Source: Clostridia bacterium (GTDB lineage Bacteria; Bacillota; Clostridia; UMGS1810). Taken from it: a DNA stretch of 64,000 bases. The stretch covers positions 62,001 to 126,000 of the forward strand of contig JAFVUE010000009.1 of assembly GCA_017502845.1 (NCBI GenBank). Reading direction: 5' to 3'. Positions 18,292 through 56,949 of the stretch are shown here, piece after piece. Position 1 is the stretch's first letter, and each line of letters starts with the position of its first letter. The position numbers were made by a program, and so were the translations under genes. A model generated the notes under the pieces. The model saw nothing but the letters and a program-made list of their open reading frames with translations. It did not search any database and was not told the origin of the DNA.

Positions 18292-18364
18292 TCGAGGTGA
18301 CAGGGCTCGAACCTGCGGCCTCATGGTCCCAAACCACGCGCGCTACCAGCTGCGCCACACCTCG
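18292..18364 (-). tRNA. tRNA-Pro (anticodon UGG)
   Basis: A 73-base cloverleaf on the minus strand. The acceptor stem is CGAGGTG/CACCTCG with discriminator A, the anticodon loop is TTTGGGA, and the T-loop is TTCGAGC. CCA is not encoded. It has its own consensus promoter and terminator. Confidence 0.97.
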
Positions 18365-18378
18365 AAAACACATTGACT

Positions 18379-18407
18379 ATTGTAATATATTATGACAGTT
18401 TTGTCAA
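18379..18407 (-). promoter_or_regulatory. Promoter of tRNA-Pro
   Basis: On the minus strand: TTGACA (18407-18402), 17-base spacer, TACAAT (18384-18379). Confidence 0.88.
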
Positions 18408-18454
18408 GAGAATAAATGAATTCAAAAAAAAATTAAAAATTTTCAAAAAAGTTC

Positions 18455-18483
18455 TTGACTTTGTAAAAAGTATGTGATATTAT
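18455..18483 (+). promoter_or_regulatory. Promoter of the tRNA-Thr/tRNA-Tyr unit
   Basis: TTGACT (18455-18460), 17-base spacer, TATTAT (18478-18483), 14 bases before the tRNA-Thr 5' end. Confidence 0.85.
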
Positions 18484-18496
18484 AGTTCATGGATTT

Positions 18497-18569
18497 GCTG
18501 GTGTAGCTCAATCGGTAGAGCAGCTGATTTGTAATCAGCAGGTTACAGGTTCAAGTCCTGCCACCAGCT
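18497..18569 (+). tRNA. tRNA-Thr (anticodon UGU)
   Basis: A 73-base cloverleaf with acceptor GCTGGTG/CACCAGC and discriminator T. The anticodon stem GCTGA/TCAGC encloses TTTGTAA. The first T-stem pair (18545 with 18561) is an A-C mismatch. CCA is not encoded. Confidence 0.97.
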
Positions 18570-18597
18570 TGTAAATCCTTTTTTTATTTATAGACCT

Positions 18598-18679
18598 GGG
18601 AGGGTTCCCGAGTGGCCAAAGGGGGCAGACTGTAAATCTGTTGTCTCTGACTTCGATGGTTCGAATCCATCTCCTCCCA
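18598..18679 (+). tRNA. tRNA-Tyr (anticodon GUA)
   Basis: An 82-base class II tRNA with a long variable arm (TTGTCTCTGACTTC region). The acceptor is GGGAGGG/TCCTCCC (one G-T pair) with discriminator A, and the anticodon loop is CTGTAAA. CCA is not encoded. Co-transcribed with tRNA-Thr. Confidence 0.97.
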
Positions 18680-54573: not shown

Positions 54574-56103
54574 ATGAGCAAAAGACCTATCGTACTTGCT
54601 ATCCTTGACGGTTACGGCAAAAGCGATTTAGAAAAGGGTAATGCGGTACTTGCTGCAAAAACACCCAATCTTGATAAACTCACAGCAGAGAACCCCGCAA
54701 CAATCATTCACGCAAGTGGTATGGATGTAGGACTTCCCGACGGACAGATGGGTAACTCCGAGGTTGGCCACACCAATATCGGCGCAGGCAGAATCGTTTA
54801 TCAGGAACTTACAAGAATCACAAAGTCAATTTCAGACGGCGATTTCTTCAATAATGCCGCATTCAATGAGGCGTGTGAAAACTGCAAGAAGAACGGAAGC
54901 GCACTCCATATTATGGGCCTTCTCTCTGACGGCGGTGTTCATAGCCATAATGAGCATATGTACGCTCTCGTCAAACTTGCAAAGGATAAAGGACTCGATA
55001 AGGTTTATATCCATTGTTTCTTGGACGGAAGAGACGTTTCTCCTACAAGCGGTGTTGATTTTGCAAAAGCACTTGTTAATAAAATCCGTGAAATCGGCGC
55101 AGGTGAGATTGCAACCGTAATGGGCAGATACTACGCTATGGACCGTGATAACCGTTGGGAAAGAGTTGTTAAGGCATACGATGCAATGGTTAAAGGCGAG
55201 GGCGAATACTGTGATTCAGCAGTTACAGCTATCGAAACATCTTATAATAAAGATGTAACAGACGAATTCGTAGTTCCTACTGTTATTACAAAAGACGGTA
55301 CTCCCACAGGTAAGATTTCAAATGGCGATTCTGTTATTTTCTATAACTTCCGTCCCGACCGTGCCCGTGAGATTACAAGAACACTTGTTGATCCCGACTT
55401 TTCTGGTTTTGATAGAGAAATGCTTGACCTCTACTTTGTATGTATGACACAGTACGACGCGTCAATGCCCAATGTAAATGTTGCATTCAAACCCGAATCA
55501 CTGGAGAACACATTCGGCGAATATATCAGTGGTCTTGGTATGAAACAGCTCCGTATCGCTGAAACAGAGAAGTATGCTCACGTAACATTCTTCTTCAACG
55601 GCGGTGTTGAAAAGACTTATGAGGGCGAGGACAGAATCCTGGTTGCATCTCCTAAAGTTGCGACATATGATATGCAGCCCGAAATGAGCGCATATGAAGT
55701 TACAGAAAAACTTCTTGAAGCACTCGATACTGATAAATACGATGTAGTTATCTTGAACTACGCAAACTGCGATATGGTAGGCCATACGGGTGTTATGGAA
55801 GCCGCAGTTGCAGCCGTTGAGGCGGTTGATACCTGCGTTGGCAAGATTGCCGATAAGGTTGCTTCAATGGGTGGTGTAATGCTTATCACAGCCGACCACG
55901 GTAATGCAGAGCAGATGCTCGATCCCGAAACAGGCGATGTGTTCACAGCGCATAGCACAAATGTAGTTCCCCTTATCATAACAGGTCTTGGGGATATCAA
56001 ACTCAAAAAAGGTCGCCTTGCAGACCTTGCTCCCACAATGCTCGATATTATGGGCGTTGAAAAACCTGCCCAGATGACAGGCGAGAGCGTAATAGAGAAA
56101 TAA
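54574..56103 (+). CDS. gpmI: 2,3-bisphosphoglycerate-independent phosphoglycerate mutase
   Basis: Interconverts 3- and 2-phosphoglycerate through a phosphoserine intermediate using Mn2+. 509 residues, an alkaline-phosphatase-superfamily enzyme. LAILDGYGKSDLEKGNAV holds the first metal-ligand Asp, and MGNSEVGHTNIGAGR contains the catalytic Ser. FLDGRDVSPTSG, GRYYAMDRDNRWER, NYANCDMVGHTG and ADHGNAEQM provide the remaining ligands. AAGAAAGG precedes the ATG at 54574; the frame further up overlaps the intergenic repeat and lacks a ribosome binding site. Confidence 0.98.
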   Translation: MSKRPIVLAILDGYGKSDLEKGNAVLAAKTPNLDKLTAENPATIIHASGMDVGLPDGQMGNSEVGHTNIGAGRIVYQELTRITKSISDGDFFNNAAFNEACENCKKNGSALHIMGLLSDGGVHSHNEHMYALVKLAKDKGLDKVYIHCFLDGRDVSPTSGVDFAKALVNKIREIGAGEIATVMGRYYAMDRDNRWERVVKAYDAMVKGEGEYCDSAVTAIETSYNKDVTDEFVVPTVITKDGTPTGKISNGDSVIFYNFRPDRAREITRTLVDPDFSGFDREMLDLYFVCMTQYDASMPNVNVAFKPESLENTFGEYISGLGMKQLRIAETEKYAHVTFFFNGGVEKTYEGEDRILVASPKVATYDMQPEMSAYEVTEKLLEALDTDKYDVVILNYANCDMVGHTGVMEAAVAAVEAVDTCVGKIADKVASMGGVMLITADHGNAEQMLDPETGDVFTAHSTNVVPLIITGLGDIKLKKGRLADLAPTMLDIMGVEKPAQMTGESVIEK

Positions 56104-56106
56104 AAA

Positions 56107-56141
56107 CAAGCGTTGACTTTTATAGTCAACGCTTATTTTTA
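56107..56141 (+). terminator. Terminator of gpmI
   Basis: AAGCGTTGACT / AGTCAACGCTT with a TTTAT-type loop followed by ATTTTTATT. Confidence 0.88.
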
Positions 56142-56184
56142 TTGGTTTGGCGACAATTCGGATATGTAAACTTTTTTGAGCAAT

Positions 56185-56345
56185 AAAAAAGTGCGTGGCA
56201 GAGCCACGCACGAAAAACACATGACTCCGAATGCAACCACGCAACTCATAAACACAATACTCAGTTATGCTTAAAAAGCCATGTATTTTTGCCAAAAGGA
56301 CATAAAAATACACAACCGAATATTATATTATTAAGTTACGTGGTT
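56185..56345 (-). ncRNA. Orphan structured small RNA, about 161 nt, 6S-like architecture
   Basis: On the minus strand a consensus promoter (56352-56380) places the start at about 56345, exactly where a 12-bp closing stem begins: AACCACGTAACT with AGTTGCGTGGTT. Inside are a symmetric 9/9 internal loop, then an 11-bp stem AATATTCGGTT/AACTGAGTATT. Next is a 1/15 asymmetric region whose 3' side holds the mini-hairpin GCTT-TTT-AAGC, and then a 9-bp apical stem TGTATTTTT/AAAAATACA with a 13-base loop. A terminator GTGCGTGGC-TCT-GCCACGCAC plus six T follows at 56211-56185. The three non-Watson-Crick positions are all G-U on this strand, and would be A-C on the other. No credible ORF lies within it. 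Closing stem, central bubble and apical stem resemble 6S RNA, but family membership is not proven. Confidence 0.75.
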
Positions 56346-56351
56346 AAAGTT

Positions 56352-56380
56352 ATTGTAACATAGCATATAATATTTGTCAA
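56352..56380 (-). promoter_or_regulatory. Promoter of the orphan small RNA
   Basis: On the minus strand: TTGACA (56380-56375), 17-base spacer, TACAAT (56357-56352). Confidence 0.88.
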
Positions 56381-56442: not shown

Positions 56443-56949
56443 TTACTTTTCATTTATTATTCTGCAAGGACTTCCAACAGCGGTAGCACCGTCGGGGATG
56501 TCCATATTGATGAGCGAACACGCACCTATAACGGCGGATTCGCCTATGATGATTCCTTCTCTTTCTTTGTCGCGGTTTTTGCTGATTATGCTTGTCCGCA
56601 TACCGATATATGCATTATCTTTTATAGTTATGGGCAAGTGTTTTTGGTTGCGGCCATGACAGGCAAAGAATACGCCATATGATATTATTACATTGTTTCC
56701 GATTGTTATGTAATCATAACACAAATCATCCAGATAGCATCTCATTCCGATAAAGCATTTCTTTCCGATTTTGAATCCGCAACACCTGTATAAGAAAATC
56801 CTGATAGTATTAAAGGGACAATTTGCTGCAATGACATTGGTGATGTACTTCCTTATAGGTTTGCATATCAGTTTCAATATGCTGTATTTCAGGTAATACG
56901 GCGGTTCCTTGCGTGAGAACAGTCTGTATACGCGTTCAGGTAATGTCAT
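56443..56949 (-). CDS. Left-handed beta-helix acyltransferase (hexapeptide repeat, 168 aa)
   Basis: An O- or N-acyltransferase of the LbH family, using acetyl- or acyl-CoA. 168 residues with an N-terminal helical extension (1-50). Imperfect hexapeptide repeats follow (IGKKCFIGMRCYLDD, ITIGNNVIISYGV, ITIKDNAYIGMRTSII, IIIGESAVIGACSLIN), with a loop His in FACHGRNQKH and the closing DIPDGATAVGSPCRII. This layout is usual for serine, maltose or polysaccharide acetyltransferases. It stands alone with no glycan cluster around it, so the acceptor is unknown. An AAATCCTCG/CGAGGATTT stem at about 56407-56442 follows its stop. Confidence 0.87.
   Translation of the reverse strand: MTLPERVYRLFSRKEPPYYLKYSILKLICKPIRKYITNVIAANCPFNTIRIFLYRCCGFKIGKKCFIGMRCYLDDLCYDYITIGNNVIISYGVFFACHGRNQKHLPITIKDNAYIGMRTSIISKNRDKEREGIIIGESAVIGACSLINMDIPDGATAVGSPCRIINEK

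Follow-up and report, generated by a model that had tools for sequence, protein, structure and literature searches.

The window analyzed here, that is, the whole 64,000-nucleotide stretch of contig JAFVUE010000009.1 from a Clostridia bacterium (assembly GCA_017502845.1), contains on its minus strand a structured RNA lying between an acyltransferase ORF, which ends upstream at 56443, and a convergent downstream neighbour, which we take, from reading the translations, to be the gpmI gene of a pgk-tpi-gpmI cluster. The parts of this locus are the following.

56375-56380, minus strand: -35 box TTGACA, from the sequence and from promoter-like boxes found family-wide.
56352-56357, minus strand: -10 box TACAAT, on the same grounds.
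56185-56345, minus strand: leader/attenuator RNA, the full short transcript; folding z = -8.07, and a match to covariance model R1 at E = 1.0e-23, the window copy being one of the 18 training sequences of R1.
56332-56345, minus strand: 5' arm of P1, the address helix, AACCACGUAACUUA, from pairing and covariation.
56235-56248, minus strand: 3' arm of P1, UGAGUUGCGUGGUU, from pairing and covariation.
56313-56329, minus strand: 5' strand of P2, variable in sequence and paired, from the MFE fold.
56251-56268, minus strand: 3' strand of P2, with approximate limits, from the MFE fold.
56304-56312, minus strand: segment 0, UGUAUUUUU, the apical-hairpin partner of segment 1, 92% paired and in the MFE fold.
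56277-56290, minus strand: segment 1, AAAAAUACAUGGCU, whose partner is segment 0 or segment 2, from alignments.
56213-56228, minus strand: segment 2, GGAGUCAUGUGUUUUU, whose partner is segment 1 (pseudoknot) or segment 3 (antiterminator), from alignments.
56199-56212, minus strand: segment 3, the 5' arm of terminator 1 and the antiterminator target, from the 2:3 pairing.
56185-56211, minus strand: terminator 1, GUGCGUGGCUCUGCCACGCAC-U6, from sequence, fold and alignments.
56141-56166, minus strand: anti-tail CAUAUCCGAAUUGUCGCCAAACCAAU, antisense to the tails of the copies at C3:105174 and C3:98063 in the same genome.
56102-56134, minus strand: terminator 2, AAGCGUUGACU-AUAAA-AGUCAACGCUU-GUUUUU, an inverted repeat.

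The promoter (TTGACA at 56380-56375, a 17-nt spacer, and TACAAT at 56357-56352) places the predicted start at about 56345 on the minus strand, which is the first base of the closing stem, exactly as the first-pass annotation of this DNA had proposed, and the GC-rich intrinsic terminator with which it ended the RNA was located at 56211-56185 on the same strand. The MFE of the RNA is -64 kcal/mol versus -33.3 +/- 3.8 kcal/mol for dinucleotide shuffles (z = -8.07, 0/200). Its closing stem is present, with 14 bp instead of the 12 bp originally described, but the symmetric 9/9 bubble that was thought to follow does not occur in the MFE fold, where a 2x2 internal loop leads into a long and mostly paired stem. 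Since the acyltransferase ORF has its own hairpin at about 56441-56408, read-through from that gene is not the sole possible source of the RNA, a possibility that had been raised against its independence. Three features had gone unnoticed: the pseudoknot of AAAAAUACAUGGCU with GGAGUCAUGUGUUUUU, the antiterminator that overlaps the 5' arm of the terminator, and the antisense segment at 56166-56141 with a second terminator after it. The inverted repeat of terminator 2 is also found immediately after the gpmI stop codon on the plus strand, and terminator 2 of the window copy doubles as the gpmI terminator. Elsewhere in the window, three tRNA genes are clustered on both strands (18292-18679).

The identity first suggested for the RNA was 6S RNA, with which it agrees in approximate length, in the long hairpin with a closing stem, and in the apical stem. 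We consider this identity to have next to no probability. The search with the Rfam 6S covariance model, which the first-pass annotation had recommended, found no match to RF00013 at E <= 10 in the region or in the rest of its own genome, while relatives carry 6S genes at separate loci (10 of the 16 genomes of the window's taxonomic family, including the same-genus genomes G001 and G002). Furthermore, unlike 6S RNA, the RNA belongs to a family that is multicopy, pseudoknotted and gene-leading, and the central bubble expected of 6S is missing from its MFE fold. With Rfam 15, no family reached its gathering score in the region of the RNA, and at E <= 10 all matches were to unrelated families at chance level, with 6S not among them; E-value scans of homologous loci (14 + 20) had no match on the element. 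One candidate, MIR2646 (E = 0.004, 23 bits versus a gathering score of 245), was rejected as a chance match to the long hairpin. A sub-threshold match to Gut-1 RNA (RF01706; 33.4 bits versus a gathering score of 50) was seen upstream of a family member, at L074:1864-1932 on the minus strand.

BLASTN searches of relatives returned full-length homologs of the window RNA, often several per genome. The covariance model R1, built from an alignment of 18 sequences, matched 15 of the 16 genomes of the window's taxonomic family, finding as many as 14 copies in a single genome, and 77 of 291 genomes in the class. In the phylum sample of 199 genomes the only match was the window's own genome, so that none was found in the approximately 193 sampled genomes of other classes. 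The genomes surveyed are incomplete MAGs, and that of the window is 72% complete. A strict tail pattern occurred in at least 120 stretches of named genomes, and the titles among the matches listed were those of Clostridia-type gut MAGs (Oscillospiraceae, Ruminococcaceae, "Clostridia bacterium" and similar). Apart from one gut phage scaffold, matches in the plasmid and phage collections did not exceed chance level. The window RNA is a copy of a large multicopy family of gut Clostridia without an Rfam match; its description as a structured orphan that has a promoter and a terminator of its own, perhaps of an unnamed class, was right, whereas a simple single-copy sRNA it is not, being one copy of an attenuator family that mostly precedes genes. 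A search of the open-access literature found neither a description of the family nor one of such a chromosomal network in nature; the family may still figure among the unnamed candidates reported by large screens, for example PMC8040213. Two members lie on contigs classed as viral, L042 (MT835845.1), upstream of a lipoprotein-like ORF, and L216 (IMG/VR UViG 3300011008_000947), and tRNA genes are located near several other copies (L004, L009, L075-L077). Tandem promoter-leader-terminator units, two or three in a row, were observed in G280 on C2, C11 and C35 (L304, L303, L298), at G012:C138:35007-35588, and in L004, L095 and L123; these units, several of them with one ORF after the last, are serial attenuators.

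Alignment with relatives and a test for covariation, which had been proposed as a check on this RNA, supported four helices. In P1, 98% of cells were paired in the 18 sequences and 10 of 13 pairs covaried with two-sided changes; among 77 distinct sequences aligned to R1 the values were 98.5% and 9 of 13. The pseudoknot pairing 1:2, which spans from the interior of the hairpin to the region past it, was intact in 99% and 93% of cells in its two halves (99% and 91% in the 77 sequences), the antiterminator 2:3 in 98% (95%), and the terminator 3:4 in 95% (18 sequences). R1 itself contained neither the 1:2 nor the 2:3 pairs. Because segment 2 is the partner of both segment 1 and segment 3, these two helices share some of the covariation. 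On every measure the observed value was reached in 0/500 shuffles, a control that carries no model of relatedness, and values dropped sharply when the segments were slid. The antiterminator excludes both the pseudoknot and the terminator, and terminator and overlapping antiterminator are both conserved. In addition, 200 of 227 copies had a correctly placed promoter-like TTGnnn-N15-19-TAnnnT (approximately 8 in shuffles), and unpaired bases were conserved in a GGU/GGC apical loop, a GCUCU bulge and a GACAA linker. On the strength of these alignments, the family is read as transcription attenuators with alternative helices. In predicted folding of the free tail, the antiterminator was the outcome for 134 of 227 copies; with the linker and GGAG blocked, as an anti-tail or the pseudoknot would do, the terminator formed in 226 of 227. 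The window's own tail took the terminator fold even when free, which may mean that this copy is off by default.

A ribosome site and an ORF start lay within 45 nt past the terminator in 119 of 189 copies (63%), compared with 8 of 189 on the opposite side; the window copy is not among the 119. The family copies are thus leader RNAs. This makes it very improbable that the family acts only as a trans-acting sRNA, with the terminated RNA of 160 nt as its functional form and the leaders as derivatives of it: the window copy and many copies of family f1 are gene-less, as that explanation expects, but it does not account for an ORF directly behind 63% of copies. The downstream products were mostly surface, secreted or small proteins, and signal-peptide-like starts, by a crude rule, were present in 50 of 81 outside the window's family and in 10 of 44 within it. 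The 77 downstream genes included those for BspA-type leucine-rich repeat proteins (11), SLH proteins (5), dockerin proteins (3) and HTH regulators (3), and others encoded single enzymes (a CoA ligase, a radical SAM enzyme), lipoproteins, and many small uncharacterised proteins. Among the copies of a single genome, a Cys-rich "DVTGIxLTPGN" family was encountered six times. A link of the downstream genes to defence was rejected, the PADLOC matches being weak and mostly HTH-type or single. There is no common pathway that would indicate a metabolite.

Small Cys-rich proteins of the form DVTGIxLTPGNxGKDCLGNGxHxDENGxxIECCCxEC were seen behind leaders L051, L034, L238, L241 and L270-L274, with several copies per genome and a family leader before each; the one member scanned had no Pfam or PHROG match. 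In genome G009, five paralogous genes (MNKxxKI...PVRxI) each have their own leader (L231, L232, L234, L235, L236), and the address helix differs from copy to copy among these five.

A conventional cis attenuator or orphan riboswitch, in which the P1-P3 domain would bind a metabolite or protein and so set 1:2 against 2:3, is consistent with the leader position, the promoter, the expression platform and the conserved unpaired bases. We nevertheless consider it unlikely, since no pathway is common to LRR/BspA, SLH, dockerin, HTH, CoA ligase, radical SAM and small uncharacterised proteins, and since the sequence of P1 should be free under this explanation, yet is semi-conserved by type. It would also treat the antisense segments described below as incidental or minor and the gene-less copies as decayed leaders, which leaves the anti-tails, the second terminators and the matching within genomes unexplained.

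In many gene-less copies, terminator 1 is followed at a distance of no more than about 100 nt by sequence antisense to a family tail, and a second terminator was present in 20 of 25 copies with such an anti-tail versus 9 of 121 copies with an ORF. The complementarity covers the P1 3' arm, the linker and GGAG of family tails, the matches are roughly 12-40 nt long, and the anti-tails are encoded at loci other than the leader that they match. That they are antisense to their own tail was rejected, because the mean score against it (18) was near background, compared with 27 for the best sibling; that they are copies of the P1 5' arm was rejected because the complement of linker and GGAG is also covered. 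The summed best same-genome score was 1157, against 1072 +/- 26 with genome labels permuted (0/2000). When the 43 gene-less copies, whose independence is incomplete, were compared with matched numbers of tails from other genomes, Fisher P was 4e-7, and at the same cut-off 16/43 matched in the antisense orientation and 0/43 in the sense-strand control. Leader-complementary sequence is thus encoded in the same genome as the leaders. More than half of the gene-less copies had no clear same-genome match, and several anti-tails matched modestly. The best same-genome match of the anti-tail of G005:C9:48358 was the leader of a 105-aa gene, that of G001:C11:627 matched 55479 at 21 of 22 positions in an alignment with a single gap, and that of L036 matched G006:C139 best; several targets carry ORFs. 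In another family of the class, the anti-tails of G190:C4:23912 and G190:C50:1623 (L278, L281) span nearly all of segment 2.

The permutation tests are compatible with some of the signal coming from recent or decayed inverted duplicates of sibling copies, and recent inverted duplicates would likewise match same-genome siblings. This bears on the explanation that the family is a mobile or repeat element, such as a promoter-leader cassette or a MITE-like element, with the anti-tail as the remnant of an inverted neighbour copy. The many copies per genome, the tandem copies, the mixed contexts and the copy on a phage scaffold would fit such an element. We judge it improbable, however, because the tail-like block is antisense, lies between terminators 1 and 2 and usually comprises only a P1 arm, the linker and segment 2, because it matches its own copy at near-background level (18 versus 27 for the best sibling), because four helices show compensatory changes, and because the gpmI locus is conserved between species. 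Unsystematic inspection brought no transposase link to notice.

The window copy is gene-less past its terminator, where the anti-tail and then terminator 2 follow. Its anti-tail covers the complement of P1 3' arm, linker and GGAG of the copies at C3:105174 and C3:98063. With up to 3 mismatches, the target sequence TGGTTTGGCGACAATTCGGA occurs at only two other sites in the 72% complete genome, which are these two family tails (reversed control, 0). The predicted duplex of the anti-tail is -42.2 kcal/mol with C3:105174 and -26.5 kcal/mol with its own tail, energies that include pairing beyond the address. Both targets are also gene-less and carry other candidate anti-tails, for which no targets were found in the 72% complete genome. 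In a sister species of the same genus, an orthologous copy (L002) located beside gpmI keeps P1, segments 0-3 and the terminator, and this position kept in two species argues for vertical inheritance at the locus. The anti-tail of L002 differs from that of the window and matches G001:C7:52521, in its own genome, at 21 of 22 bases. A test for paired change between the window's targets and those of the sister species yielded no protein matches between the contigs concerned.

Taken together, we lean, with a modest margin of confidence, towards a chromosomal attenuator family in which gene-less, antisense-carrying copies would terminate transcription at the leaders they address. We infer that the copies are transcribed and read through, that anti-tails pair in trans, and in which direction they act. 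Each copy comprises a promoter, a long hairpin closed by the address helix P1, and, as its tail, the linker and GGAG...UUUUU. Pairing of the tail with the apical strand of the hairpin would form the pseudoknot and leave the terminator free, while pairing with the 5' arm of the terminator would form the antiterminator, and polymerase would then reach the downstream gene. Since the window copy has an anti-tail and a second terminator past terminator 1, its read-through would give a longer RNA able to pair with the tails of C3:105174 and C3:98063. In the simplest model, the anti-tail RNA would probably enter at the single-stranded linker and GGAG and displace P1; the target leader, deprived of its antiterminator, would stop transcription early. 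Disruption of the pseudoknot may instead give the opposite effect. A ligand or protein acting on the apical domain may also feed into the read-through decision; among candidate inputs, the evidence favours an RNA partner.

That gene-less copies are complementary to same-genome copies suggests that genes are wired by RNA alone. More tentatively, and with slightly less than an even chance in our estimation, the family could constitute a natural chromosomal RNA-only wiring, with one core, own addresses, gene-less relays, and cascades rewired between sister species. The gated read-through RNA of a relay would bear the address of another member, and other leaders, and sometimes protein genes, would thereby come under the control of leaders. 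Neither Rfam nor the searchable literature appears to contain this RNA family, which is present in about a quarter of the sampled genomes of the class. If the anti-tails do what their complementarity suggests, antisense attenuator cascades, so far only built synthetically, operate in natural bacteria; the address code would make targets predictable from sequence alone, and there would also be a handle on the regulation of BspA-type and SLH surface proteins in uncultured gut bacteria.

The family resembles riboswitches and orphan candidates in having a 5' leader with a terminator/antiterminator expression platform, and differs from them in that it has no common downstream pathway and no ligand hypothesis. 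In plasmid attenuation systems, a single leader is met by a complementary antisense RNA encoded at the same site on the other strand. In pIP501, the antisense RNAIII induces premature termination at the repR leader, which has alternative helices (PMC4981023). The family is like pIP501 RNAIII/repR and pT181 in its alternative-helix leader, and blocking of its tail is predicted to free the terminator. In contrast to pIP501 and pT181, its antisense segments are located at other chromosomal loci and are not fully complementary opposite-strand RNAs, there are many leaders per genome, and leaders of the same kind would gate the antisense RNAs. The open-access literature searched yielded no natural chromosomal counterpart of the synthetic attenuator cascades. 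One report on engineered antisense attenuators describes orthogonal sets and RNA-to-RNA cascades (PMC3753616); the synthetic families, engineered unlike the window family, share with it a common switching core and exchangeable recognition parts.
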